From Halovivax ruber XH-70 (GTDB lineage Archaea > Halobacteriota > Halobacteria > Halobacteriales > Natrialbaceae): DNA of 64,000 nt. A model generated the notes under the pieces. That model was not told the DNA's origin. It was given only the letters and a program-made list of their open reading frames with translations, and searched no databases. The first letter of the stretch is position 1. The number at the start of each line of letters is the position of its first letter. Made by a program: the position numbers and the translations under genes. Location: contig NC_019964.1 in the NCBI RefSeq assembly GCF_000328525.1, positions 1 to 64,000 on the forward strand, read 5' to 3'. Positions 13,875 through 48,013 of the stretch are shown here, one piece after another.

Positions 13875-16292
13875 ATGAGTACGGGAGAGATGGAAGCGTG
13901 GCGGGCGCTGTTCGGTCACGACGAGCCCTACGACGAGCAGGTCGACGGCATCGAGACCGCAATCGAGACGGCTCGTGACGGTGGCTACACCGTGATCGAG
14001 GGCGCCTGCGGGACGGGCAAGACGATGCTCTCGCTGTCGGCCGGGCTCTCGCTGGTGCGCGATCCCGACTCGACGTACGAGCGCGTCCTCGTCCTGACGA
14101 GCGTCAAGCAGCAGTTACGCCAGTTCGAGACCGATCTGCGGACGATCAACGAGAACTTGCCCGACGAACACGAGCCGGTCTCAGGGCTCACACTGGTCGG
14201 GAAGGCGGACGTCTGTCCGTACAATCGCGAACACGCCGCCGGCTTCGACGACAGCGTCGTCTACGACCGGTGTGAGACCCTCCGCGACCGCACCCGCGAT
14301 CTGACGGGCGAGGGCGGCTCGACCACGACCGGCGACCTCACCGCCCAGGCGCGGAGCCAGCAGGTCGGCCTCGCCGACAGTGGCCGACGCGATCGCGGCG
14401 TTCGCCTCCTCGAGACGGCCGGCGAGACCGCCCCGTTCGCTCCCGACATGCCCGAGTACGACGACGGGCGCAGCGGCGTCGAGTACTGCCCGTTCTACGC
14501 GCAGTACCTGGACGACCTACCCGCTGAGGGCGAGGGCTCGCCGGCCGAGGCAGTGCCGTTCGATCTGACGAGTGCCGGGATGGTGACCCCGGATGACCTC
14601 GTGGCGAAGTCGGTCCGACACGGCACCTGCCCGCACTCGGTGATGGGCGCGGCACTCGGCGAGGTCGAGGTCGTGATCGGCAACTACTACCACGCATTCG
14701 ATCCGACGACGCTCTCGGCCTTTACGGGCGCACTCGCCAGTGAGGAGACCTTCGTCGTCTGCGACGAGGCGCACATGCTCGAACCGCGTGTTCGCGACCT
14801 CGTGAGCGACGGCGTGGCCGACGCGACGATCCGCGACGCCGTCACGGAACTCTCGCGGGTGATCCGGCCCGTCCGCTACGAGCGCGAGGGCCGGGAGACG
14901 GAAGGCGGGTCGAAGACGGCGGATGCGGAGCTCGTCCGCGCGGAACTGGCCGGCTCAGACGTCTCGTTCGAGGAACTGGAGGCCACCCTCGAGTTCCTGC
15001 AGGACCTGCGCACGGAACTCGATCGTCGGGTCGAGGCCCACCTCGACACCGAATCGCCGGGCTGGCGCTCCGATCTGACGACGCTCTCGGACGACGAAAT
15101 CCCTCTTCGGGACCCGTCAGAGCCGGCCGTCGACGCCCTCTCGGAGTGGGCCGAACGGGCGGGCTACACCGATATCCACTGGGTCCGGTCGGAGTCCGTC
15201 GGGGCCGTCGTCGCTCGCATCCTGAACGAAGCCGAAGACGAAGAGCGGACGAGGGCAGCACCCGCTGTCGGGCGGCTCCTGGGTGAGTGGAATCGACGGG
15301 GCCACACCGACTACTTCCGCGAGATCGAACTCGAACGGACGTGGGACGAGACCGAACCCGACGACTCGTGGCGACGCGCGTACACGGCTCGACTCTCCCT
15401 GCACAACTGCGTCCCGAGCGGTGCCATCGGCGAACGGCTGGCCGCGTTCGGCGGCGGCGTCCTGATGAGCGCGACGCTCGCCCCGATGGACGCCTTCGCG
15501 GAGGTGACGGGACTGCGCTATCTCGAAGACGAGGCGGATCGCCCGATCGTGGAACGCCGCTACGGCCTCCACTTCCCCGAGGAAAACCGCGAGAGCTTCG
15601 CCGTCGCCGCACCCAAGTTCACCTACGACAACCGCGGGTCCCCGGGCGGGGCTGGCGACGAGGCCCACGGCGTCGCGGACGACACGACGCCGACCCGCCG
15701 CGTGTACGCCGACGCCCTGGCCGAAATCGCCGCCCTGCCCGGCAACGTCCTCGTCGGGATGCCGAGCTACGCCGAAGCCGAGTGGGCGGCGGGCAGACTC
15801 GAAGCGAACCTCGACGGCAAACCCGTCCTCCTCGACGTCGCCAGCGACCACGTGGCCACCGAGTCGCTGAAAGACGAGTTCTTCGCGGGTGACGGGAAGG
15901 TGCTGGTCACCAGTCTCCGCGGGACGCTCACCGAGGGCGTGGACTACGGCGGCGACCGACTGAACGCGGCGGTCGTCTGCGGCGTCCCGATCGTCAACAC
16001 GTCGAGTCCGCGCACGCAAGCGGTTCGGCGGGCCTACGACGACGAATTCGGCGCCGGCTTCGAGTACGCGCTGACGGTTCCGGCGGTTCGAAAGGCGAGA
16101 CAGGCGCTCGGACGCGTCATCCGGAGCCCCGAGGATGTCGGCGCTCGAGTCTTTCTCGACGAACGCTACGCGCGCGAATCGTGGGATTCGGTTCGGGGCT
16201 ATCTCCCCAACGCCGACGAGTACCAGCCCGTGAGTCCGGACATGCTCGAACTGGGCCTGGACCGCGTCCGTGCACAACTCGAAACGGAGTGA
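13875..16292 (+). CDS. XPD/Rad3-like Fe-S DNA helicase
   Basis: An 805-aa superfamily 2 helicase of the XPD/DinG type, expected to unwind DNA 5' to 3' in repair. Walker A GACGTGKT is at 43-50 and the DEAH box at 297-300. Four spaced cysteines (about C114, C133, C205, C252) lie between them where XPD carries its 4Fe-4S cluster; the intervals are longer than usual. The C-terminal helicase domain shows LVTSLRGTLTEGVDY and QALGRVIRSPEDVG (motif VI). ATG 13875 is chosen because the upstream extension runs into non-coding text after aspS. Confidence 0.88.
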   Translation: MSTGEMEAWRALFGHDEPYDEQVDGIETAIETARDGGYTVIEGACGTGKTMLSLSAGLSLVRDPDSTYERVLVLTSVKQQLRQFETDLRTINENLPDEHEPVSGLTLVGKADVCPYNREHAAGFDDSVVYDRCETLRDRTRDLTGEGGSTTTGDLTAQARSQQVGLADSGRRDRGVRLLETAGETAPFAPDMPEYDDGRSGVEYCPFYAQYLDDLPAEGEGSPAEAVPFDLTSAGMVTPDDLVAKSVRHGTCPHSVMGAALGEVEVVIGNYYHAFDPTTLSAFTGALASEETFVVCDEAHMLEPRVRDLVSDGVADATIRDAVTELSRVIRPVRYEREGRETEGGSKTADAELVRAELAGSDVSFEELEATLEFLQDLRTELDRRVEAHLDTESPGWRSDLTTLSDDEIPLRDPSEPAVDALSEWAERAGYTDIHWVRSESVGAVVARILNEAEDEERTRAAPAVGRLLGEWNRRGHTDYFREIELERTWDETEPDDSWRRAYTARLSLHNCVPSGAIGERLAAFGGGVLMSATLAPMDAFAEVTGLRYLEDEADRPIVERRYGLHFPEENRESFAVAAPKFTYDNRGSPGGAGDEAHGVADDTTPTRRVYADALAEIAALPGNVLVGMPSYAEAEWAAGRLEANLDGKPVLLDVASDHVATESLKDEFFAGDGKVLVTSLRGTLTEGVDYGGDRLNAAVVCGVPIVNTSSPRTQAVRRAYDDEFGAGFEYALTVPAVRKARQALGRVIRSPEDVGARVFLDERYARESWDSVRGYLPNADEYQPVSPDMLELGLDRVRAQLETE

Positions 16293-19927: not shown

Positions 19928-20911
19928 ATGAAATCGTTCAACACCCGATATGGAAGGAGGGATTACATAAAAAATGCATTATCTGCTGGATCTGTGATTG
20001 GTGGCTTCACGCTGGCTAACCACGCAGAAGCGCAAAACGTAATCGAAAGCGGAGGTCCGGAAGAGACCTGGGATGTTTACGAAGAGAATTTCCCTATGGA
20101 TGATGAGGATGCAGCAGCAACTGTCGTTTCATCTGTCTTAAACTGGTGGGGAGCAGAAATTGTCCCTCGCCCGGGTGGTGATAAATACGTACAAAACTTC
20201 GACACCTGCTGCCTATTCAGAAATCAAAAAACGGATGGGACGAGGGGATACGCATTTGAGGAACATTCACTATCTGCGTCAATCATTAATGGATGGGCTG
20301 AATTTAATGTTGCACCGAACGGGTCGGATACATTAGGTGCGGCAACTAATGAAACTCCCCTACGCGATGGGATGGAGAATGTTGCAGCGGCAACCGTCGA
20401 ATACGGTCTGAGTCAGATTGCTGGTCCTTTTGACTATTTCTTTAGCGCGTCAGATATTTATGATGCCTATGATGAAACTGACTTTGACACTGGTGATGAT
20501 CGTAAACTGGAATGGAACGACTCCTTTTACACAGGCCGTTCAGATATGACTCACTATTCCTGGATCATTGTGGATCAAGAACCGGGGGAATATCCTGCCG
20601 TTGGTACAATGGACGTTGTCAGCGAGGTAGACGCATCATATTCAATGTGGGACGCAAAAGTCGAGTACCGAGTTAACTATTCTACTCATTCATCCCCATG
20701 GGAATCAACAGAAACGAGCGTCTCCTCAATGGAGGATGAGGAGCTTAAAAGGAGGGGGATAAGTAAAATAAATCCTATGAGAGCTAAAGCGCTATCTGGA
20801 ACAGTTTTACCTCCGATGGTCACCCAACGGGCGATCGAGGAGGAAAGGCCAGTTTACTGGACTACTGACCTTCCAATTGAGGTAACAGTTACAACCCAGT
20901 CTGGTGGCTAG
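19928..20911 (+). CDS. Tat-exported protein of unknown function (island 1)
   Basis: 327 aa. The N-terminus carries a twin-arginine signal (RYGRRDYIKNALSAGS) and a likely cleavage after HAEA (about residue 35), so the folded protein is sent outside. The mature part is polar and Trp/Tyr-rich, with CC at about position 98, and no catalytic motif that I recognise. Codon use is AT-rich, unlike the flanking genes. The lipoprotein gene starts 4 bp after its stop; a similar pair exists at 28854-30190. Confidence 0.7.
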   Translation: MKSFNTRYGRRDYIKNALSAGSVIGGFTLANHAEAQNVIESGGPEETWDVYEENFPMDDEDAAATVVSSVLNWWGAEIVPRPGGDKYVQNFDTCCLFRNQKTDGTRGYAFEEHSLSASIINGWAEFNVAPNGSDTLGAATNETPLRDGMENVAAATVEYGLSQIAGPFDYFFSASDIYDAYDETDFDTGDDRKLEWNDSFYTGRSDMTHYSWIIVDQEPGEYPAVGTMDVVSEVDASYSMWDAKVEYRVNYSTHSSPWESTETSVSSMEDEELKRRGISKINPMRAKALSGTVLPPMVTQRAIEEERPVYWTTDLPIEVTVTTQSGG

Positions 20912-20915
20912 CGTG

Positions 20916-21404
20916 ATGACGAGCAGAAGACGATTCATCGCGTACTTTGGCAGCATGCTTTCCATGACTAGCGCAGGGTGTTTGTCTCGTCTTTCCCGGG
21001 AGGAACCTCGACTCGTCTACGTGGCACTGGAAAACCAGAGTTCTGAGCGAAAGACAGTCGATCTGAAGGTCAACGCCGACGGTGAAACTCGGATAGATAC
21101 GTCGATCACACTCTCGTCGATCGATAAGTCGACTGACCAGCCGGATCCGTCGGACGCCCCGTATCAGTGTTACCTTACTGGCGACTGGCCTGAACGGGGT
21201 ACGTATGAAGTCGTAGCTAGGTTAACCGACATCGACCGTACCTTTCGGTCGACGTCACGTGGTATCGAACCCGGATCGGACTTCGGGTTAATGGGCATGG
21301 TTCACCCTGGCCGCGACGCAATAGGTTGGTTCTCGGAAACGGTTGGCCCCGACGAAATTACGGAGTATGAAAACTGGCTGGAACGATATGGAGAAACGAG
21401 ATAA
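20916..21404 (+). CDS. Tat lipoprotein, partner of the exported protein (island 1)
   Basis: 162 aa. The signal peptide has SRRRFIAYFGS and ends with lipobox SAGC (Cys about 22), so it is probably lipid-anchored on the outer face of the membrane. The following segment (LVYVALENQSSERKTVDLKV) has the alternating pattern of an Ig-like beta sandwich. The ATG at 20916 is preferred to upstream GTGs because it places the RR near the N-terminus. Confidence 0.7.
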   Translation: MTSRRRFIAYFGSMLSMTSAGCLSRLSREEPRLVYVALENQSSERKTVDLKVNADGETRIDTSITLSSIDKSTDQPDPSDAPYQCYLTGDWPERGTYEVVARLTDIDRTFRSTSRGIEPGSDFGLMGMVHPGRDAIGWFSETVGPDEITEYENWLERYGETR

Positions 21405-28853: not shown

Positions 28854-29744
28854 ATGTCTAGGAAAGACGTTGGGCGAAGATCTGTATTGGCATCGACAGG
28901 CACAACTCTTTTTGGTTCAATAGCCGCAAATACTGCAATTGCGAGCCGAGGTACCGATCCAAGCAAGCGATTTACTGACGTTATTTTAGAGTCGAATAGA
29001 ATTGCGAAGGAAAAAGGTTTGGAAGAGAGGCAAAAGTATCTTGATGAAAAAGGCGTATCTCATCAGGAAAAGGACCTCCAGGTTTCTTTGAACGGAAATC
29101 GATACGATAACACAACCCAGACCGCTGGCAATGACTCAAATATCTGCGTTGAACCGTTAGAGTGCGACGCTGATATTGATGTTCAATTTTCATTAAGCTA
29201 TGAACCGCGTGCTGACCCAGGCGAATTTCATTATTCATACTTTATGAAATTCAACTATAGTCTTGATTGGGATTTGTCTCCGATTGGGCCGGGAATCACG
29301 TATTACGGGCCTAAAAATCCGGTAGATACATTAGGGCTTACATGGGAAGAGAATCGGGTTGATGTTAAGGACTATAAGGAAGTTCCAGAATCTGTAGTCA
29401 CTGACGATTTCACAGAGTTTGATGGCGGAAGTTATACGGGTTCAGGTCTTGGTGTCCTTGTGGATGGTCGCAAAGCGGCGTGGGAATCGGGCTTAACTGG
29501 TGGAGAATGGGATTGGAGCCAACTAGCTACGGCGGGGGTCTTTCTCGTAGAGGATGTTGATTTCCGGCCCGAAACATCCTTCAGGGGCTTTTATACATAT
29601 GCTTGGGAAGGAGTCAAACCAGATGTCTCTGTTTCCTATCCAGAAACAATTACATTTTCCGCAAATGAGTATGATGAGTCAGAAAAGTTTCAACACACTC
29701 CAGAAGGGGATACCTTCCATCTGAAGGCCAAAGACGTGATGTAA
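28854..29744 (+). CDS. Tat-exported protein of unknown function (island 2)
   Basis: 296 aa with a twin-arginine signal (VGRRSVLASTGTTLFGS) and a likely cleavage near AIAS (about 32). The mature part has a charged helical region (about 40-75) followed by a beta-rich, Tyr/Trp-rich domain with one CVEPLEC cysteine pair (about 97-103). No enzyme motif seen. AT-rich codon use. A lipoprotein gene follows 56 bp downstream, echoing island 1, though the two exported proteins show no clear sequence match. Confidence 0.7.
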   Translation: MSRKDVGRRSVLASTGTTLFGSIAANTAIASRGTDPSKRFTDVILESNRIAKEKGLEERQKYLDEKGVSHQEKDLQVSLNGNRYDNTTQTAGNDSNICVEPLECDADIDVQFSLSYEPRADPGEFHYSYFMKFNYSLDWDLSPIGPGITYYGPKNPVDTLGLTWEENRVDVKDYKEVPESVVTDDFTEFDGGSYTGSGLGVLVDGRKAAWESGLTGGEWDWSQLATAGVFLVEDVDFRPETSFRGFYTYAWEGVKPDVSVSYPETITFSANEYDESEKFQHTPEGDTFHLKAKDVM

Positions 29745-29800
29745 TTTACAACAGGATTTAGAAACATATATAAATCCATATAATCATAAAATTGGTATTT

Positions 29801-30190
29801 ATGATAGGCCGTAGAACTATTTTGGAGACAATATCTGTCGGAGTAGTCGTTTTCTGTGTGGGCTGTTTGGAACGTATTCTCAAAGACGATGATGAAGAGA
29901 CTACTGTCCTTGTCGTAAGTAATCTCTCTGATGAGGACTTATGGTTCAATATTGCCATCAAAGGGTCTGATGGAACGAGTCTGCTCGAGGATCGGTTTTT
30001 CCTCGAAGAGGGAAAGGGATATGCGACGGAACAGTTCGAGGATGTCGCGCGATTCGTCGAGTACGAACTGAGCAGCGATGAAAGTGGAACAACACGTATC
30101 CCGACGGACTTAGAGGCGCCCAGGTCTTGGCCTCGGAAACTATTCGCCGATTACTCGCCCGATGATGGTCTCGTCGTCCACTCACCGTAA
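29801..30190 (+). CDS. Tat lipoprotein, partner gene (island 2)
   Basis: 129 aa with signal IGRRTILETISVGVVV and lipobox FCVGC (Cys about 21). After an acidic linker, VLVVSNLSDEDLWFNIAIKG resembles the VYVALENQSSERKTVDLKV segment of the island 1 lipoprotein, suggesting the same Ig-like fold. ATG 29801 is preferred to an in-frame TTG at 29792 because it centres the RR motif. Confidence 0.68.
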   Translation: MIGRRTILETISVGVVVFCVGCLERILKDDDEETTVLVVSNLSDEDLWFNIAIKGSDGTSLLEDRFFLEEGKGYATEQFEDVARFVEYELSSDESGTTRIPTDLEAPRSWPRKLFADYSPDDGLVVHSP

Positions 30191-39384: not shown

Positions 39385-41541
39385 TCACGCGCCGAGCTGG
39401 AAGTCGAATCGCGCGCCGCCTGCCTCGCTCTCTTCGGCTGAGACCGACCAGCCGTGGCCCGCGGCGATCTCGCTGACGATCGAGAGGCCGAGGCCGGTGC
39501 CGTCGTGGCTCGTCGTGTAGCCGGAGTCGAACAGCCGATCGAGGTCGACCTCGTCGCCGAAGCCGCAGCCGTCGTCGACCACCGCGAAGCCGTCTGGCGT
39601 GTCCGCGACGGTGATCGTGAGGTCCTGCCCGTCGCCGTCGGGCGTGCCGTGTTCGACGCAGTTGCGAACGAGGTTCTCGAGGAGCTGTCGGAGGCGACTC
39701 CGGTCGGCCTCGACGGTGGCCGTCGTCGACAGGTCGAGCGTCGCCGCGCCGGTGTCGACGTTCGCCCAGGCATCGCTGGCGACGGCGGGGAGGTCGACGG
39801 GTGCCGTCTCCGTGACTTCGCCGCCTTCACGGGCGAGTGTGAGGACGTCCTCGACGATGTCGAACGACCGGTCGATGCCGCGTTCGGCTTCCTCGAGCAG
39901 CGAGAGGTCGTCAGTCTCTCTGGCCTGTTCGATGTAGCCCGCGGCGACGGACAGCGGGTTGCGCAGGTCGTGACTGAGGACGCTCGCGAAGCGGTCGAGG
40001 CGTTCGTTCTGCTCGCGGAGTTCGCGCTCGCGGCGCTTCTGGACGGTGATGTCGGTGTAGATGGCGAATCCCTCGGGGCTGTGTTCGCCGAGCTGGAGGG
40101 GGACCACGTCGATCCTGACGTCTCTGAGGCCCTCGGCCGTCTCCCGCTTGGTCACGTGCTGGACGGTCTCGCCGGCCAGCAGGGCCTCGTTGAGCGCGTT
40201 GCCTTCGTCCTCGAAGCCGGGCGGGACGATGTAGTCGTCGACGCTCTCGCCCATGACGGTCGCGCGGTCGTAGCCGAAGACGCCCTCGAAGGCGTCGTTG
40301 ACGTCGCGGACGACGGGTTCGTCGTCGACGAACTCGAATCTGATGGCGGGATCGGGGACGTTGGCGAACAGCGCGGAGAGGCGGTCGTGTTCCTCGACGA
40401 CGTCCTGTTCGGCACGCAGGCGGGCGAGCGACTCGGCGACGTGGGCGGCGAGTAGTTCGACGAGTTCGAGGTCGCTCTCGTCGTATGTGTCGGGCGTCGT
40501 GGAGACGGCCTGGAGGACGCCGAACTCGTCGATGGGGACGCTGATGCACGCTCTGAAGTCGCCGACCTCGTCGTGGGTGCGGTCGTCGGTGGCCGCGTCG
40601 CCGATCCGGTAGGACTCGCCGGTGCGGTAGGTCTCGCCCATGAGGCCGTACTCGAGCGGGAGTGCGCCGATCTCTTCGCGGATGGGCCAGGAGGGGCGGC
40701 CCTTCGGGACGAATTCGCCGTCCTCGACGATGCCGAGGTAGCAGACGTCGATATCGAGGATGCGTTCGGCGGTGTCGACCGCGTGTTCGAAGAGTTCGGC
40801 TTCGGAGTCGGCGGCGGCGATGCCGAGCGTGCCCTCGTGGAGGCGGGTGACGAGTTCGCGCCGTTCGCGGAGGCGCTCTTCGACCCGGATGCGTCGCAGG
40901 GTTTCGGCGACGTGAGAGGCGAGGATCTCGGCGAGTTCGACGTCGCGGTCGTCGAACCCGGCGTACTCGGTCGAGATCGCCTGGAAGACGCCGTACGAGC
41001 CGCCGATGGGGACGCTGATGGCCGATTTGAAGCGCTCGCTCGCGGGCTGGGCGACGGGATGGCTCTCGGCGTCGTCGACGTGGAAGGTCTCGCCGGTCCG
41101 GAAGGTCTCGCCGGCGAGGCCCGTGGGTCGAAACTCCGTCTCGTAGTCGAGCGGGAAGGTGGAGGTGCCCGCGCGATGGACGAGCCACTCGCCGTCCTCG
41201 CGTTCTTCGTGGATGAGGAACGCGGTGGTGTCGAAGTCGAGGACGCCCTTGGCGGTGTCGACGGCGAGGTCGAACAGCTCGGCTTCCTCGCGACAGGCGA
41301 CGATCTCGGTCGCCATCTCGTGCAAGCGGGCGATCTTCGAGCGGTCGTCCTCCGTGGGGAGGGCCGTGGACCCCTCCGATTCGTCGGCGGTGGCCTCCGC
41401 GTCGGTGTCGCTGGGGCTCCCGTCGGTCGCCTCGTGTTCGGGCGGTGTGACCGGTTCGCCGCCGTCGGTGGTCGCCCCGTCGGTCCCCTCGTCAGGCTCG
41501 GGGCGGGTGATGTCGTCGCCGGGTCCGATGTTCCCTGTCAT
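39385..41541 (-). CDS. GAF-GAF-PAS sensor histidine kinase
   Basis: 718 aa without transmembrane segments, so a cytosolic sensor. An acidic N-terminus (1-65) is followed by two GAF domains (about 75-225 and 235-385), a PAS domain (about 395-510), a HisKA domain with phospho-acceptor LSHDLRNPLSVAAGY (about 530) and a HATPase domain with N box LENLVRNCVEHG, G1 VVDDGCGFG and G2 GTGLGLSI. No response regulator is adjacent. It converges with rfcS. Confidence 0.92.
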   Translation of the reverse strand: MTGNIGPGDDITRPEPDEGTDGATTDGGEPVTPPEHEATDGSPSDTDAEATADESEGSTALPTEDDRSKIARLHEMATEIVACREEAELFDLAVDTAKGVLDFDTTAFLIHEEREDGEWLVHRAGTSTFPLDYETEFRPTGLAGETFRTGETFHVDDAESHPVAQPASERFKSAISVPIGGSYGVFQAISTEYAGFDDRDVELAEILASHVAETLRRIRVEERLRERRELVTRLHEGTLGIAAADSEAELFEHAVDTAERILDIDVCYLGIVEDGEFVPKGRPSWPIREEIGALPLEYGLMGETYRTGESYRIGDAATDDRTHDEVGDFRACISVPIDEFGVLQAVSTTPDTYDESDLELVELLAAHVAESLARLRAEQDVVEEHDRLSALFANVPDPAIRFEFVDDEPVVRDVNDAFEGVFGYDRATVMGESVDDYIVPPGFEDEGNALNEALLAGETVQHVTKRETAEGLRDVRIDVVPLQLGEHSPEGFAIYTDITVQKRRERELREQNERLDRFASVLSHDLRNPLSVAAGYIEQARETDDLSLLEEAERGIDRSFDIVEDVLTLAREGGEVTETAPVDLPAVASDAWANVDTGAATLDLSTTATVEADRSRLRQLLENLVRNCVEHGTPDGDGQDLTITVADTPDGFAVVDDGCGFGDEVDLDRLFDSGYTTSHDGTGLGLSIVSEIAAGHGWSVSAEESEAGGARFDFQLGA

Positions 41542-42181
41542 AGGTTCTGCTCGCTGGTCGAGACCGGGATGGTGTCAGTGGGTACAGAGAACTTGCCCGT
41601 TATGAATGTGCCGAGAAATGCAGCATTTCCTTCGATATCGCCCGTTCCTATGATATTCACCAGCGGCAAAATTATCTGGTACCACTGACGAATATCCGCG
41701 TCTCTCAGTCTGCAGATCCGGTCCCTGCTCGCTATTTTCGACGAGAATCGTGTTAGTCTATCGAACTTGTGGGGTTACTGAGCACTTCTGTTTCGTACGG
41801 CGGTCGAATCGGTAAATAATCGAACTCCGACTCGGGCGCGAACCGGCTTTAGAGCCGCTCTGCAGGGGATATCGGCAATTTGTGACCGCTATAATTGGTG
41901 GCTGCCTTCGATAGTGCACTGGCTCGTTCTCGGTCCAGCTGCGAGTGGCAATGGTTCAGCGGGGTGCTACTCAGGGATATCGAATTCTCTGGTGAAGGCC
42001 ACGTGGGATCGACTTCGCCCGCCGAATTTCCACGCACCAGTAACTATATATTATTTCACACCATACTTCGGAACGGAAGCCACGGACTCCATCGTACGCG
42101 CGGGGACATACGCAGAGGAAATGTCCCGGGTGCTAGAGCCACCCGAGACGTGGTTTCCAAACCCGCGAGGGTTTAGTCACC
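41542..42181. other. 640 bp spacer, no gene seen
   Basis: It holds the kinase promoter region, then mixed-composition DNA with no frame I can support. Composition begins to fall toward the accessory region at 42.5 kb. Confidence 0.45.
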
Positions 42182-42322
42182 ATGCTACGCAATTCACCAT
42201 CGAGACAAAAAGCTCTCGTCCACCTGTGGTATCGCCAGCCGAAGCGCTATTTCGAATTCGTCTGGGATTCGAAACTCGTCGAGGATCTGCTTCTCAGGCT
42301 CGGCAATCTCAAGGTGAACTGA
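42182..42322 (+). CDS. Possible 46-aa protein, overlooked
   Basis: Reads MLRNSPSRQKALVHLWYR, then QPKRYFEFVWDSKLVEDLLL and RLGNLKVN before TGA. It is basic, ends in an amphipathic helix, and stops one base before the ATG of the 42324 gene, suggesting an operon. It may be a fragment of a longer mobile-element gene. Family unknown. Confidence 0.4.
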   Translation: MLRNSPSRQKALVHLWYRQPKRYFEFVWDSKLVEDLLLRLGNLKVN

Positions 42323-42323
42323 G

Positions 42324-42551
42324 ATGGGTCGCTACGAGTACGACGAGCCGAAGCCGGACGATCCGTGTGAGCGTTGCCGGGCAGATCTGGCGCAGACGGA
42401 CTGGGCCAAACTGCGAGCTGTCCACGACGGGCCGTCCGCCAGCGGGTATCGAGACGCGGAGAAGCGGGTCTGCGTTGATTGTCTCGCGGCGCTTGGGATG
42501 CTGGAGTTTGAGATGAATGGTGGATCTGGAGGTGGACAGAGAACGGTGTGA
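42324..42551 (+). CDS. Small four-Cys zinc protein
   Basis: 75 aa with DPCERCRAD (about 13-16) and RVCVDCLAAL (about 49-52), two CxxC pairs forming a probable zinc ribbon, and a short acidic C-terminus. Proteins of this style are common on haloarchaeal plasmids and integrated elements (general knowledge). It marks the left edge of the accessory segment. Confidence 0.65.
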   Translation: MGRYEYDEPKPDDPCERCRADLAQTDWAKLRAVHDGPSASGYRDAEKRVCVDCLAALGMLEFEMNGGSGGGQRTV

Positions 42552-42914
42552 GGACGTGTTGGTAGTAGGGCTGGGAACCTACCTAGTACCGTCTCGCAAA
42601 CCAGTTGGTCGTGATCACGGCGTTTCAATTTTGGTCTTCTTATGTGACTAGCAGGTGGTTTCTTTTAATGTACTGAGCAACTGGCCGTGATTTCGATTTG
42701 ATCTCAGTATAGGTGTCTCACCCTGTTGTCTCTCGCGAACACAAGAATCCCGGCCGCTTGTTCATTTAGTGGATAAAAGGTTTGTTGAGCTACGACCTCT
42801 TGAGTGGAGATAGTGGGATATTTTTGGAATAAGATAGCAGGGGGAGTTCTGAAATAGTCCATATCAGAGTAATTTGGTGGAAAGAGATATGTGTGGAAAG
42901 GAGAAGGAACGAAT
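42552..42914. other. AT-rich lead-in to the three-gene cassette, no gene seen
   Basis: No usable frame in 363 bp. A Shine-Dalgarno-like GGAAAGGAGAAGG (42895-42907) stands before the ATG at 42915, unusual among the mostly leaderless genes of this window. Confidence 0.45.
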
Positions 42915-43397
42915 ATGTCGCCTAATATTCCTGCTTGGTTTTCGATAGCAGCAACTCTCCTTTCAGGCGGGGCAATTGCCTATCTAATACGGCAGGTCTG
43001 GAATAGTTATAAGCTGAAAAGAGCCCTTAAGTGCGAAATCCAGTCCATGGAGGGTCTTGTTAATTGTACCAACTCTATGAATTCGCGTCGTTCGCCGCCC
43101 TCTGATAAGGAATTGGGGCCTTCAGACGTTCCTCCGGGAGGGTCTATCCCTACTAGTATTTACGAAGCAAATCTTCAGCGACTAGGGTTACTTCGCCAAA
43201 AGGATCTTCGGAAGATAGTGGGGTTCTATTCAGATGTATTGAGGTACAAATCAATAATGTCGTCAATTAGGGCAGGTGAGGATATTCCAGATCCCGATCA
43301 GATGGATCTGTACCAGTCCATTGGCGATTTAGAAAACCGTCGGCAATCCCTCTTTGGAGAAAACTGGATATCCGAAGAAGGCGCCGACGAGGAGTAG
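42915..43397 (+). CDS. Single-span membrane protein, cassette gene 1
   Basis: 160 aa. A short N-terminus is followed by one transmembrane helix (about 6-26, FSIAATLLSGGAIAYLIRQV) and a cytoplasmic domain of about 130 residues with charged helices. No family recognised. The ATG is chosen because a strong ribosome-binding sequence lies 8 bases upstream; a GTG at 42891 is possible. AT-rich codon use shared with the next two genes. Confidence 0.68.
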   Translation: MSPNIPAWFSIAATLLSGGAIAYLIRQVWNSYKLKRALKCEIQSMEGLVNCTNSMNSRRSPPSDKELGPSDVPPGGSIPTSIYEANLQRLGLLRQKDLRKIVGFYSDVLRYKSIMSSIRAGEDIPDPDQMDLYQSIGDLENRRQSLFGENWISEEGADEE

Positions 43398-43510
43398 GAG
43401 GTCAAGAGCAACTGGAGTCTACTATCTGGTCGTATATGAACACTTATGATGGTCCGTTTGATTTGGTAGGGCACGCAACAGTCTCGGAACGTACGTCAGG
43501 ATAAGATATT

Positions 43511-44596
43511 ATGAGTGAGCTGGATTTCCTTAAAGTTAAAGACCTCACGTTCTCCTCGGAGGAGGACTTCATTAATTACGTAGATAGTGAGGTAGACTTT
43601 GGCGAAGTGGAGGGGAACGTCAATATAATCGGGTCTGTGAGTGATTATATTACCAAAGAGCAATTCACGAAGGCTCTAGAATACGAATTTGAAACTATTT
43701 GGTCAACTGGAGATCTATATCTTTCAGCTGCTCATACTAACTCATCTGCTATTCCATACTACGTGTACTTTGATGAGGACTTTCCGGTATTCATCACTAC
43801 TGCAAACATCACTGATGAAATGCCACCAACCATTGAGAGGTTTTTGCGGACAGATCCGAACTTAGGCCGGTTTTGGCTCTCAATGGAGCAGATGGAACTC
43901 CTACGAGCAGAAATCTCCAGAAAATACGCTGATATGATTGTTCCGTTCTTTACGGGTAACAGATCGGAATACACAGAAATACCGGCCGAAAAGAGGGATG
44001 AAATTGATCGCACGATTACTTACTGGGGAGACGATGGTCGGCAAGCATATAAAGAAATGCGAACAAAGTATGGTGTCCTCCCAACAAATATTGTCTTCGA
44101 CAGACCAAACCACTTTAAATTTGGAATAAAACAAGAGGGCGTTTTCAAACATCAAGATGGCTCGATAAAAGAAGCGTGGGAATTGTACCGAAGCGAAAGA
44201 ACCCGGAAGAAGAGAGTGAAGAAGGCGATCAACACAGGACAGTTTAACGAACAAACAGAAAGTACACAGATTGCAGAACGGACGATCTCAGGTAGCAAAC
44301 CTTGGGCAGTTGAGATGGACAAAGCAATGACTTCGGAACCGCTTGAGAGCTTTGTTCCGCATCTTAATGAAGAGGAGTTGGAATTTAGCGTCGCAAATTA
44401 CAAGGTTAAACCGGATCGCTCCAGTTTTGATGCTCAATTGGTTGATAATAATAGCTACGGAAGTACCCGTCTTCGCGGCCGGCGAAACGCTATTCGGGTC
44501 TATCCGCATGAAGGGTCAGGTATTGACCAGCACATTCGAATTTACAACTTTGTGCAAGACCATTTTGATCCCTCATGCAGAGCTGTAGAGGTGTAG
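43511..44596 (+). CDS. Unknown protein, cassette gene 2
   Basis: 361 aa, soluble, AT-rich. The N-terminal half is acidic with a compact alpha/beta look (AIPYYVYFDEDFPVFITTAN near 78-97); the C-terminal half includes a basic helix (YRSERTRKKRVKKAIN, about 232-247) and a Lys/Arg-rich segment near 315-330. No catalytic motif is certain. The stop is one base before the ATG of cassette gene 3, so the two are surely co-translated. Confidence 0.75.
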   Translation: MSELDFLKVKDLTFSSEEDFINYVDSEVDFGEVEGNVNIIGSVSDYITKEQFTKALEYEFETIWSTGDLYLSAAHTNSSAIPYYVYFDEDFPVFITTANITDEMPPTIERFLRTDPNLGRFWLSMEQMELLRAEISRKYADMIVPFFTGNRSEYTEIPAEKRDEIDRTITYWGDDGRQAYKEMRTKYGVLPTNIVFDRPNHFKFGIKQEGVFKHQDGSIKEAWELYRSERTRKKRVKKAINTGQFNEQTESTQIAERTISGSKPWAVEMDKAMTSEPLESFVPHLNEEELEFSVANYKVKPDRSSFDAQLVDNNSYGSTRLRGRRNAIRVYPHEGSGIDQHIRIYNFVQDHFDPSCRAVEV

Positions 44597-44597
44597 T

Positions 44598-45749
44598 ATG
44601 ATCTCTCCGGAAGAAGTCGACTCCAATAACTATCTTCGACTTCTCACTGACTATGATGAAAAGAATTTCCGGTCAGAATATGAGAATGCGCATAAGGACC
44701 TCTCTTTAGATGCTGCAAAAGCGGCGGTAGAGGCGCTATTCCAGAATAGATACGAACCGAAATATGAGGTTTTCGAGGCAATTGCCGACGGGTTCCATCC
44801 ATACAATGATGAAGGAATGGAAACCGGGTACGAGTTCGAGCTGACAAATCCTCTATGTGAAATTAGTGAAACTCCTGCAGACGTGCTGTTGACCTCACAT
44901 GACTACCGTGAGGTCCATCTCTGCTTTATTATCTGTGAACCCGCTGGGGAGAACTACATTGAGTGGGCTACTAGGATAAATACTGTGAGTGATCTGTACA
45001 CTGGCCATGAAGAGTACCTCTTAGATCAGATACCAGTCGATGGACTTGAACCTGGTCACGTACAGTTTGTTACTGCAACTCACAAGGACGATTTACCTGA
45101 TATTGACTTTCAGTACCTTATGAATAGCGTTAGCCCTGAAAATTATTCTATATGGGTTGTTGATGACGATTATAACGGCAATGAAGATAGGAACGTAGAA
45201 TTGAGGAAAGAGTATGGACGGATCTCGCACCGGCCGTTACGAAGTGAACTTGAGAAAGGTTTTGATTATGAAAAGGGGGAAAACACTGAGGTAGGATGCA
45301 CTCTGAATAGCAATGAGTTAATAATATTACGCGAGTCCTTTATGGGTTTAATGCTAAGACAGCACGCTTCAGGTAGGGACGAGCCCCGTGAATTCGACCG
45401 AGAGGACTTCATTGAGGAACTAGCTAACCAGACTCAGTATGATGAGCCCCCAGAAGAGAAGCAAGAAGTCATTCAAGAGAGGGCCAATTTAGTATTAGAG
45501 GTAGCAGACGAATCCGACATGGTGTATTCTAAGCCGCGAAGTGAGATCAATACGAATCGGGACTATCGTCTTCGGTATCCAAGTGGGATGCCCACACAAA
45601 TTCCAGAACATATCAAACCAAAGTACATCGATTATCGCGCGCCTATCAAAATGGCTAAAGATGCGTTTCAACAAGCGAAGGAAGAGCACGAACCTAGAGA
45701 TCAATTGATGACCGAAATAGACGATTCTAGTTCTTGGGGGCCAGAATAA
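44598..45749 (+). CDS. Unknown protein, cassette gene 3
   Basis: 383 aa, acidic, soluble. ETPADVLLTSHDYREVHLCF followed by IICEP (about 91-115) has the spacing of a degenerate PD-(D/E)xK-like strand pair (Asp then Glu), but the Lys is missing, so nuclease activity is only a weak idea. The C-terminus is helical and charged. It begins one base after the stop of cassette gene 2, preceded by AGAGGTG. Confidence 0.75.
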   Translation: MISPEEVDSNNYLRLLTDYDEKNFRSEYENAHKDLSLDAAKAAVEALFQNRYEPKYEVFEAIADGFHPYNDEGMETGYEFELTNPLCEISETPADVLLTSHDYREVHLCFIICEPAGENYIEWATRINTVSDLYTGHEEYLLDQIPVDGLEPGHVQFVTATHKDDLPDIDFQYLMNSVSPENYSIWVVDDDYNGNEDRNVELRKEYGRISHRPLRSELEKGFDYEKGENTEVGCTLNSNELIILRESFMGLMLRQHASGRDEPREFDREDFIEELANQTQYDEPPEEKQEVIQERANLVLEVADESDMVYSKPRSEINTNRDYRLRYPSGMPTQIPEHIKPKYIDYRAPIKMAKDAFQQAKEEHEPRDQLMTEIDDSSSWGPE

Positions 45750-46196
45750 ATGTATATAATGCAAAAATCAACGCCTACTCTCAAACTTTTGCTTGACCTT
45801 TCGTTTATGAACTCACATACTGCGTTACGGTAGGTGGAATCTAGTCATCCATACTATGAAGCACTACCACATCTGGGTGGGGGAGTATCGTTTGGACCTC
45901 CAAAATTTCGGGTGCTATCCAGAGGCTCGTTTCAACTACTTCGACTAGAGATCTGGGGTGCAGAATAGGGTAGGTCGGTGGTATTTCATAATTCGGTCAC
46001 CTAGATGATATGAAGTACGATGCTGTTACGGTAGATCTCCGTTATAGCCTACCTTCTTCTCCCCAACCCAAACCCCTCCGTTTCGACTGGAGTAGCCATA
46101 ACCACTCCTCACGTCGAAGCAGGCGTCCCGTTTCTACCTCTTATAATATTGTAAGGCCAGTTATAATATCTGAATCCACCTATCTACAAACCATCC
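45750..46196. other. Spacer with an isolated ORB and strong A/T boxes
   Basis: A gene-free 447 bp. It contains the ORB-like box at 46072 and two A/T-rich boxes (CTTATAATATTG at 46139 and GTTATAATATC at 46160) before the 46197 gene; the second is about 30 bases before its ATG. Confidence 0.5.
46072..46092 (-). promoter_or_regulatory. Isolated ORB-like element
   Basis: The minus strand is CTCCAGTCGAAACGGAGGGG plus T, identical over 21 bases to 8284-8304. It is 35 kb from the origin cluster and borders the AT-rich cassette. Confidence 0.7.
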
Positions 46197-46646
46197 ATGA
46201 CCGAGAATTCGCCTGACCACACCCACGATCCCGCGGCAGACAGCGAGTCACCCTCGACGCTTCGCATCACGTCGAAGCCGTTCGAGGAGCACAGAGAGTC
46301 CGTCCTGGACCGCGCGGAACGCTGGGAGCAGGGCGAAGCGGTGCCACACGTCGTCAACTTTCAGGACGCGAGTCGCCTCCAGCGCATTCTCACGCCGCGC
46401 CGCCTGGAACTCGTGCGAAGTCTGATGGAAGCGCCCGCCGAGAGCATTCGCGATCTCGCCGCTCGCCTCGACCGGGACGTTCGACAGGTCCACGACGATC
46501 TCCACCTCCTGCACGAGTACCGCATCGTCCACTTCACCGAATCGGGCGGTGCCAAGCAGCCGTCGGTTCCCTACGACACGGTGCAGATCGACATCGAACT
46601 CTCGACTCCCTCGGCGGACGCGACCGAATCGCAGGCATCGGCGTAG
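46197..46646 (+). CDS. HVO_A0114-type winged-helix DNA-binding protein
   Basis: 149 aa. The HTH core LTPRRLELVRSLMEAPAESI with RDLAARLDRDVRQVHDDLHL and a wing reading IVHFTESGGAKQPSVPYD match the HVO_A0114-like family, often the antitoxin/regulator half of a toxin-antitoxin pair. The usual TumE-type toxin partner is not beside it. It may instead regulate the toxin gene at 46805, which starts 158 bp downstream. Confidence 0.85.
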   Translation: MTENSPDHTHDPAADSESPSTLRITSKPFEEHRESVLDRAERWEQGEAVPHVVNFQDASRLQRILTPRRLELVRSLMEAPAESIRDLAARLDRDVRQVHDDLHLLHEYRIVHFTESGGAKQPSVPYDTVQIDIELSTPSADATESQASA

Positions 46647-46804: not shown

Positions 46805-48013
46805 ATGGGCCGGAAGAAGCGCCGGCGGCGCGCCGATCGGGAGCGCGCGACCGAGCGCGACCGTGCCGACGACGAGGCGGAGCGCGACGCAGCGTCGGCC
46901 CTCGGGACCCCGATGGGCATGCCGGACGCGCCGATCCCCGATTCCCCGATGCCCGACGCGCCCATGCCGGACGCGGGCGTCCCAGATATGGGGCTGGGCG
47001 GGGCGGCGATGCCCGGCGCAGCGATGGGCCAGGAACACGGGCGTAGTGCGACCCAGTCGCTGACGATGCGCGGCTACGGCCCAGAGGCCCAGCAGCACAT
47101 CTATCGGGCGACGGAGGAGACGGGAACGGATCCCCACGACGTGCCAGACGCCGTCCTCGACGTGCTCGCGACCGGTGGCGGGCAGTCGCTCGACGCTTCG
47201 ATTCAACGTGCGCTGGAGGAGCGGATGGACGCTGACTTTTCGGACGTGGAGATTCACACCGGCCCGGCGGCGGCGAAAGCCGCCGACGCGATCGACGCCC
47301 GGGCGTTCACCTGCGGGAATGCCATCGTGTTCAACGACGGCGAGTACGATCCCGAGAGTGCGGAGGGGCAGCATCTTCTGGCGCACGAGTTGGCGCATGT
47401 GAAACAACAGACCGGCGCGGCGATCTCGATGATGCCGCAGGCGGACGCCGACCTAGAGATTGATCCGGACCCGCAACTGGAGCGCGAGGCCGATCAGGCG
47501 GCCGAGGATGCACTCTCGGGCGACGAGCCGCTTATCGTGAACCGACTCGGCGCCGACGTGCACATTCAGCGGTGGAAAGACCAGCCACGGGACGCCTATG
47601 GGCGGTTTGATCAGAAAGATCTGGACCAGTACCCTCATAAAAAATGGGGGAGACAAAAACGCCCTCCGTATGCCCGAGGGCAGGTAGAAGAAGTATGGCG
47701 TCGAGCAGATACCGATGCTGAAGCGCTCGACACGGGACAGGTCCCCGACCCACATGAACCCTGGCGTATCCTAACCTGGGATGGTGGCTCTCGAAAAGGG
47801 GCCTGGGAAATGGGACACAAGCAGGGAAGGGAATACAGGTATCTGGTCGAATACTATCTGCAGGACGTAATCTCTGAAGCCGAGTTCCGTCGAGAGTACC
47901 AAAACCCCGATCACTACCACCCACAACATCCAGATACGAACAGAAGTGGCCAATACGACGGTGAAGGAGAGTACTGGGTGAGCAAATGGGGAACGTTGGA
48001 GGACAACCAATGA
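46805..48013 (+). CDS. Polymorphic toxin: DUF4157 domain plus GH-E nuclease
   Basis: 402 aa. A basic N-terminus and a Pro/Met repeat (MPDAPIPDSPMPDAPMPDAG, about 39-60) precede a DUF4157 domain (about 135-205: LDASIQRALEERMDADFSDV, then the HELAH metal motif). The C-terminus (about 270-402) matches the GH-E family of HNH/EndoVII nucleases: WEMGHKQGREYRYL with conserved G-H and E, then FRREYQNPDHYHPQHPDTNR. No signal peptide is present, so export would need a contractile (eCIS) or other apparatus not found here. The stop overlaps the immunity gene (ATGA). Confidence 0.85.
   Translation: MGRKKRRRRADRERATERDRADDEAERDAASALGTPMGMPDAPIPDSPMPDAPMPDAGVPDMGLGGAAMPGAAMGQEHGRSATQSLTMRGYGPEAQQHIYRATEETGTDPHDVPDAVLDVLATGGGQSLDASIQRALEERMDADFSDVEIHTGPAAAKAADAIDARAFTCGNAIVFNDGEYDPESAEGQHLLAHELAHVKQQTGAAISMMPQADADLEIDPDPQLEREADQAAEDALSGDEPLIVNRLGADVHIQRWKDQPRDAYGRFDQKDLDQYPHKKWGRQKRPPYARGQVEEVWRRADTDAEALDTGQVPDPHEPWRILTWDGGSRKGAWEMGHKQGREYRYLVEYYLQDVISEAEFRREYQNPDHYHPQHPDTNRSGQYDGEGEYWVSKWGTLEDNQ

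Follow-up and report, generated by a model that had tools for sequence, protein, structure and literature searches.

What could be the role of three adjacent AT-rich genes in the haloarchaeon Halovivax ruber XH-70, none of whose products contains a recognized domain? The genes lie in the window, a term used here for the whole 64,000-nucleotide stretch that was analyzed; it makes up the opening 64 kb of the host genome, a single contig of 3.22 Mb. An earlier note on this DNA had proposed them as a candidate new defense or conflict system made of a small membrane-anchored protein and two larger partners. We call the products P1 (160 amino acids from an ATG start; 42915..43397, + strand), P2 (361 amino acids; 43511..44596, + strand), and P3 (383 amino acids; 44598..45749, + strand). 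The shared strand and foreign composition described for the genes are evident, with a G+C fraction of 0.44-0.45 at 43-46 kb versus 0.60-0.70 (about 64%) for most of the window. When the proteins were compared with Pfam, NCBIfam, and PADLOC, nothing emerged beyond chance-level matches, and these collections name none of the three. Each does match an unnamed PHROGs family, namely phrog_33818 for P1 (E 1.1e-12), phrog_24372 for P2 (E 2.8e-82), and phrog_35712 for P3 (E 9e-41).

The essential finding, which lay beyond what the sequence-only view of the earlier note could see, is an exchange of a nuclease for a membrane partner. Judging from aligned relatives, the E-x-K motif of a nuclease site in P3 appears to have been lost twice, each time in a lineage that carries a new membrane neighbor.

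A predicted nuclease fold with a degenerate site

A weak nuclease-like Asp/Glu pair lacking Lys had been noticed in one of the proteins, and it proves to be part of a recognizable site. The structure model of P3 (predicted local distance difference test score [pLDDT] 85.3, from 11 sequences) contains a predicted PD-(D/E)XK fold at residues ~50-220, followed by a winged helix at ~238-344. By VIA, the closest nuclease matches were BsmI (Z 9.0; 147 residues; root mean square deviation [rmsd] 3.6) and XisH (Z 8.8; 116 residues; rmsd 2.8), with AF2093 (Z 8.0), FokI (Z 6.8), and SduA, NucC, and HamAB (Z 5.5) behind them. All nuclease matches fall within residues ~36-223, and winged-helix matches such as MukF, E2F-DP, and cullin cover 238-344. 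In the predicted strand order, D95 stands just before strand 96-101 and the E-x-K site is at the end of strand 105-113, which is the arrangement of the PD-(D/E)XK core: an Asp before strand 2 and E-x-K closing strand 3.

Relatives of P3 carry D-x-L-L and, after ~10-15 residues, (V/I)-E-(C/A)-K or G-E-A-K. The P3 family thus resembles the PD-(D/E)XK superfamily (BsmI, XisH, FokI, SduA, NucC) in its predicted fold and in the positions of D and E-x-K, and E-C-K or E-A-K is intact in 32 of 65 loci and in 6/6 outgroups. Unlike them, P3 has no sequence-family match, is fused to a winged helix, and is tied to P2. The window form also lacks the catalytic Glu and Lys. When residues 95-114 (44880..44939, + strand) are aligned with relatives that bear E-x-K, D95 is kept and I112-C113-E114 takes the place of the motif.

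P3 nonetheless stays under purifying selection after the motif is lost. Six E-x-K-less pairs had a measurable dS, and their ratio of nonsynonymous to synonymous substitution rates (dN/dS) was 0.14, 0.07, 0.05, 0.10, 0.06, and 0.13, compared with 0.08 and 0.06 in two E-x-K pairs; four further pairs were saturated. We propose that the window P3 may be a catalytically dead adaptor.

Two losses and two membrane partners

Among 65 haloarchaeal and nanohaloarchaeal loci, E-x-K is kept in 32, lost in 20 that have P1 upstream, and lost in 13 without P1. The last group comprises nine loci with a pentapeptide-repeat partner, one locus that ends at a contig edge (L101), and three further loci (L124-L126). 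In the genome of L101, another contig carries the pentapeptide partner 94 bp from its start; a separate E-x-K-less clade of 10 has this partner. Across the 64 loci with a known flank, a membrane partner accompanies 29 of those that have lost E-x-K and is absent from 3, and it accompanies none of those that have kept the motif and is absent from 32 (Fisher p 7e-15, for rows that are related by descent). Within the whole locus stretches, P1-family and pentapeptide-partner genes were found only beside the P2 of E-x-K-less loci, and neither gene was present anywhere in the stretches of E-x-K loci. All six loci outside the order are two-gene P2-P3 loci with E-C-K intact, two of which stand beside putative type I restriction genes, one product of which is HsdM-like.

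The P2 tree contains three E-x-K losses and two partner gains. A combined P2+P3 tree was built from 66 rows with the motif columns removed, by a quick search and with support from the Shimodaira-Hasegawa approximate likelihood ratio test (SH-aLRT) and no bootstrap; L085, L043, L105, L026, L095, and L031 are absent from it, as is the outgroup L140. When this tree is rooted, the P1 clade (support 96) and the pentapeptide-partner clade (100) are each nested within E-x-K lineages, and one outgroup row falls across the root from the rest. Monophyly of the P1 clade is weak in the P2-only tree (58/48) and reaches 96 in the combined tree. Because the outgroup loci have E-C-K intact and the E-x-K-less clades are nested in E-x-K lineages, the active nuclease is placed as ancestral. 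Gene order, linkage, the match between motif loss and partner, the polarity of the change, purifying selection, and insertion as a unit are all observed directly in the sequences.

It could be argued that loss of E-x-K and the membrane partners are unrelated lineage traits that coincide by descent, with P3 perhaps cutting by means of unusual residues and P1 serving as a regulator or anchor. Each trait has only two origins, D95 is often retained, and the window P3 has a Glu at the Lys position. The coincidence would, however, have had to happen twice, with unrelated membrane partners, and apart from L101 and L124-L126 there is no exception in the other 61 loci. Moreover, the P1 clade shows I, V, C, S, A, F, or Y at the Glu position, and several of its members have Glu in place of D95. 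We consider such a coincidence unlikely and favor an exchange of effectors.

The membrane proteins

The predicted membrane anchor of P1 was borne out, with a single hydrophobic helix near the N-terminus, whose 19-residue hydropathy peak is 1.65, and a K/R-rich stretch after it. By the positive-inside rule, this stretch suggests that the C-terminus is in the cytosol, and the cytosolic domain keeps the motif SIPT-x-(V/I)YE ... FYS ... K. In each of the 20 loci that have a P1 homolog, it precedes P2 by 33-134 bp. Among these 20 proteins, the top hydropathy peak is at another place near the N-terminus in three and below 1.6 in three. P1 is proposed to be a membrane effector.

The wider P1 family is found in 97 of 392 genomes of the order at E<=1e-3, orphan genes among them, and the 18 strongest matches in that search (E below 1e-40) are all in genomes with P2. 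The three-gene plan that had been envisaged stands in so far as a small membrane protein does accompany two partners, but P1 is not obligatory. Indeed, P1 as an obligatory effector was rejected, since only 20/65 loci have it and orphan P1-family genes exist. Each of the five genomes of the window's genus has a match to orphan P1-like genes, whose products have a single transmembrane (TM) helix; four of these genes, G000:C1:2782098-2782367 (L127 4997-5479), L128, L129, and L130, have similar surroundings.

The partner of the sister clade is of a different kind. At nine loci, a divergent pentapeptide-repeat protein of 486-511 amino acids with two TM helices is encoded 42-246 bp from P2, and its C-terminus is a channel-like 2-TM domain. 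This domain family is wide (132/382 genomes at E<=1e-5), with members that carry Ion_trans_2 and T-x-G-Y-G-D. The partner's C-terminal domain is tied by hhalign to an Ion_trans_2 protein at 99.3%, and the six strongest 2-TM matches in the search of the order (E<1e-66) come from six genomes of the E-x-K-less clade. A working K+ channel is not claimed for the partner, from which the filter is gone though it is present in the wider family. Haloarchaeal proteins of this wider family, including those at L183-L192, join pentapeptide or long repeats to a 2-TM pore domain, and some reach ~1000 amino acids; many keep T-x-G-Y-G-D, and they are K+-channel-like with large repeat domains.

A linked and mobile module

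The second and third genes had been judged a unit on the strength of their spacing. P2 stop and P3 ATG are separated by 1 base, and P1 and P2 by 113 bases. P3 adjoins P2 on the same strand in 67/67 full loci, with gaps of -25 to +6 bp, and the two were never seen apart as full genes. Homologs of the two thus travel together, in a patchy, mobile distribution. The outcome that would have counted against the earlier proposal, unlinked homologs or matches to housekeeping families, was looked for and did not occur. It is virtually certain that the cassette is real and conserved.

Two of the 67 loci, L085 and L043 (near-copy in one genome), were removed to give the 65 compared above; L085 was taken to be the Harhisp1 provirus because gene lengths and spacing are identical. 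Two matches that had no P3 by profile were set aside, namely a second P2-like one in L078 and a fragment lying upstream in L099, as were four genomes with weak partial P2 matches (L143, L144, L145, L146), among which L145 and L146 hold fragments without P3. Distant P2-P3-like pairs were observed at L078 6906-8944 (a partner of 298 amino acids with D-C-K), L143 4653-6885, and L144 3556-5648, with E-V-K or E-I-K in the second protein of the latter two. Halorubrum aquaticum has such a distant pair in head-to-head orientation to a P1-P2-P3 cassette. A decayed copy of the module is seen at L131 (G182:C19), where a P3 gene survives as two fragments and P2 is missing.

P2 relatives occur in 18/125 genomes of the host's taxonomic family, in 58/392 of its order, and, of 294 genomes of the phylum, in 6 that do not belong to this order. 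Bearers include Natrinema, Haloferax, Halorubrum, Halomarina, and Nanohaloarchaea archaeon SG9. The loci thus span haloarchaea, plasmids, the virus Harhisp1, and one nanohaloarchaeon, and the 6 further loci belong to other archaeal classes. The nanohaloarchaeal locus (L084; CP012986.1) has the E-x-K form without P1 in a DPANN lineage, which suggests that the module has passed between nanohaloarchaea and haloarchaea.

Harhisp1, an induced pleolipovirus, has all three homologs in the same order (P2 36%, P3 28%, and P1 36% identity) as HarHp1_110/105/100. Near P1 it also holds a shorter pentapeptide protein that lacks the channel domain. According to PMC7911831, Har. hispanica carries Harhisp1 as a provirus, and the circular Harhisp1 genome was obtained from a virus stock of the same host. 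A core function in the virus was considered and rejected, given that only 1 of 50,697 phage records (Harhisp1) has P1, P2, or P3 and that scans of IMG/VR queried with P2 or P1 returned no relative; the status of viral passenger was kept.

Such carriers bring to mind a module for element maintenance or addiction, either a toxin-antitoxin system or superinfection immunity, that stabilizes viruses, plasmids, and islands. The Harhisp1 copy adjoins a CopG-RelE pair and an Orc1-type rep gene. Three plasmids carry a P2 relative with P3 on the same strand (by profile), and two of these have Cdc6 or CopG genes some kilobases off. P2 additionally bears a likeness to RnlA (Foldseek probability 0.82, 6y2q). 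Yet the majority of copies are in chromosomal contigs, restriction enzymes are among the neighbors, no small antitoxin-like neighbor recurs, and a cognate third gene is missing from the two-gene form. A maintenance role is for these reasons doubtful, and a defense role is preferred.

Restriction enzymes and integrases were found among the relatives' neighbors. The tally used 123 of 125 flank proteins (two of 52-53 amino acids were dropped, and flanks over 1400 amino acids were excluded), and the controls were 123 of 140 genes sampled from random stretches of the same genomes, the last 17 being dropped to match the size. Pfam families among the 123 neighbors included pentapeptide (8), Eco57I (4), integrase (3), N6_Mtase (3), McrBC (3), PDDEXK_1 (3), and Mrr_cat (2), none of which is among the control families listed with two or more members. 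PADLOC families matched numbered 197 for neighbors versus 52 for controls, led by type IIG, DrmMI, and PglX-like methylases. This neighborhood lends support, short of proof, to a possible defense setting.

A candidate sensor

The structure model of P2 (pLDDT 81.9) contains TBP/RdgC/RnlA-like and CENP-L,N-like domains. Residues ~240-361 match CENP-N (Z 8.8, 98 residues), KA1, TBP, and RnlA, and residues 23-242 match CENP-L and RdgC (Z 6.7-7.9). These matches would define a fold class and not a function. P2 is proposed, on the basis of its model, to be a sensor of nucleic acid or of the invader. RnlA (a T4-restricting RNase toxin), RdgC, TBP, and CENP-L/N all have folds like parts of P2. Unlike RnlA, however, P2 has no HEPN RNase family match and no RnlB-like antitoxin was seen, and the structural matches are middling and local. 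The Pfam search likewise gave no HEPN or RnlA family match for P2, and the structure list barely tests its other parts.

A basic, DNA-binding-like helix had also been noted in one of the proteins, and this claim did not survive comparison. The helix at P2 220-242 has a net charge of +6 only in the window's own small clade, and other members range from -7 to +3. It was therefore rejected as a DNA-binding feature of the family, in whose range of -7 to +6 the window protein is the extreme.

RdgC is the highest by probability of the listed Foldseek matches to P2 (0.96, TMq 0.26), and P3 is nuclease-like, which together could suggest an accessory to repair or recombination. Against this, occurrence is patchy (58 of the order's 392 genomes, as noted), the 25 commonest neighbor families hold no repair genes other than UvrD-like helicases (2/123), and membrane partners would be unexpected. 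A repair function is very unlikely, and we return to the conflict system as the preferred reading.

A proposed conflict system

A conflict or defense role is probable for the cassette, with the system most likely antiviral or anti-plasmid. We infer the fold-based roles of the proteins, the formation of a complex, sensing, membrane damage, and an antiviral benefit. In the ancestral two-gene form, P2 would recognize nucleic acid or nucleoprotein derived from the invader and would license DNA cleavage by P3, a PD-(D/E)XK nuclease that also has a winged helix. Along the lineage of the window, P3 without its catalytic Glu and Lys would persist as a binding adaptor, and the P2-P3 complex would relay the signal to P1, whose cytosolic domain might then assemble P1, disturb the membrane, and stop the infected cell. 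The sister lineage may have made the same exchange independently, by means of the pentapeptide-repeat protein with its two-TM channel-like domain, which may be an altered pore or merely an anchor. P2 would thus sense and P3 would link, and the effector would be P3 in E-x-K forms, P1 in the window form, and the channel-like protein in the sister form.

We give an even chance to this mechanism, in which a mobile archaeal sensor-effector conflict system exchanges a nuclease for a membrane effector. Slightly below that, and offered tentatively, we place the full description of an undescribed archaeal immune system. It would pair a TBP-like sensor with a PD-(D/E)XK/winged-helix partner, its nuclease would have been turned twice into a dead adaptor upon recruitment of a membrane effector, and its carriers include a virus and a DPANN lineage. 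As for novelty, a published description of the cassette was not found in the literature searched, which was limited in range. The claim of a new defense system stands as to a linked and previously undescribed cassette; antiviral action is the inferred part, and one copy is itself borne by a virus.

Several observations speak against this proposal. No family of the PADLOC 2.0 profiles was reached at E<=1 by P1, P2, or P3; among relatives, PADLOC matches were confined to L039, whose P3 matched GajB (E 0.03), and to L003, whose pentapeptide partner matched PDC-M07A (E 0.002), a candidate system only. In the neighbor comparison, the control list held the top 25 families, so single control matches could be hidden. 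The P2 fold matches are middling (Z 6-9), and the functions of the matched proteins differ. Foldseek by itself gave no E below 0.001 for P3, so the fold call draws on VIA, strand order, and the motif. The L124-L126 loci have E-x-E, which by BamHI chemistry might still work, and no membrane partner. An independent-pairs test cannot reach significance, having too few pairs, because there were only two independent loss-and-gain events. The pentapeptide partner itself has no T-x-G-Y-G-D filter, which makes ion conduction doubtful. Finally, the wider P1 family includes orphan chromosomal genes, for example in five genomes of the genus, and P1-like proteins would for that reason not be toxic in themselves.

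Modular sensors whose effectors can be interchanged are already known as a general plan; the three families are new. According to PMC11442185, catalytically inactive prokaryotic Argonautes rely on auxiliary effectors. The common plan is a component that has lost catalysis together with an associated effector. Unlike those systems, the cassette has no Argonaute, and it is the presumed effector subunit, P3, that has lost catalysis. Membrane proteins such as Cam1 reportedly act by depolarization. Compared by description, Cam1, Csx23, and related type III CRISPR effectors share with P1 a small membrane protein, a cytosolic domain, and a proposed signaled disturbance of the membrane. Unlike them, the P1 cassette has no CARF family match and no CRISPR, and activation would be through a protein complex. 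A further known likeness is the homologous, unnamed three-gene cassette of Harhisp1 HarHp1_110/105/100 and phrog_33818/24372/35712, which differs from the window copy in being on a pleolipovirus, beside the rep gene and CopG-RelE pair.

Most archaeal defense genes are unrecognized, and the usual grounds for proposing effector exchange are domain fusions. In the present case, a single family tree shows nuclease-competent forms together with two dead-nuclease forms that have different membrane partners, so that nature, if the proposal is true, has itself run an experiment in exchanging effectors. The resulting pairs of sequences, some of them from named strains, let sensing, cutting, and membrane effects be separated. 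Because the Har. hispanica provirus holds a homolog of the whole cassette in a tractable host, the question is directly testable.

The insertion slot and its surroundings

The cassette lies in a segment with outer limits 42797..46014 that has no counterpart in two congeners, in both of which the flanks align (blastn, L179 and L180). In L180 (G030), the window flanks 42035-42596 and 46015-46135 map only 333 bp apart, where the window carries 3.4 kb. The same gap in L179 (G029) is 1.3 kb and holds a different gene. Because the two gaps differ in content, the three genes occupy a variable slot, and P1-P2-P3 were inserted as one unit. The gene in the L179 slot (14640-15491, - strand) encodes a 283-amino acid multi-TM protein with no Pfam match and is another cargo of this hotspot. 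At the window copy, neither an integrase nor an attachment site was detected at the locus, and searches there for repeats, promoters, terminators, Rfam families, and tRNAs gave none, or none above chance.

The window copy's own neighbors are a kinase, a helix-turn-helix gene, and a toxin locus. The upstream gene (39385-41541, - strand) is presumably a histidine kinase, judging from its motifs, and the downstream gene at 46197 is an HVO_A0114 helix-turn-helix gene. The toxin-immunity genes reported next to the cassette are present: 46805-48013 encodes eCIS_core and GH-E nuclease domains (Pfam), and an ankyrin protein comes next. A polymorphic toxin locus, with immunity-like genes behind it, adjoins the slot. 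The products of 46805-48013 and of L179 16140-17099 are related toxin-like proteins of two congeners with a common N-terminus and differing C-terminal parts, and the window copy carries eCIS_core. Elsewhere in the window, two AT-rich pairs at 19928-21404 and 28854-30190 each encode a secreted-looking protein of ~300 amino acids followed by a lipobox-like protein of 130-170 amino acids, and these could be secreted toxin or adhesin pairs.

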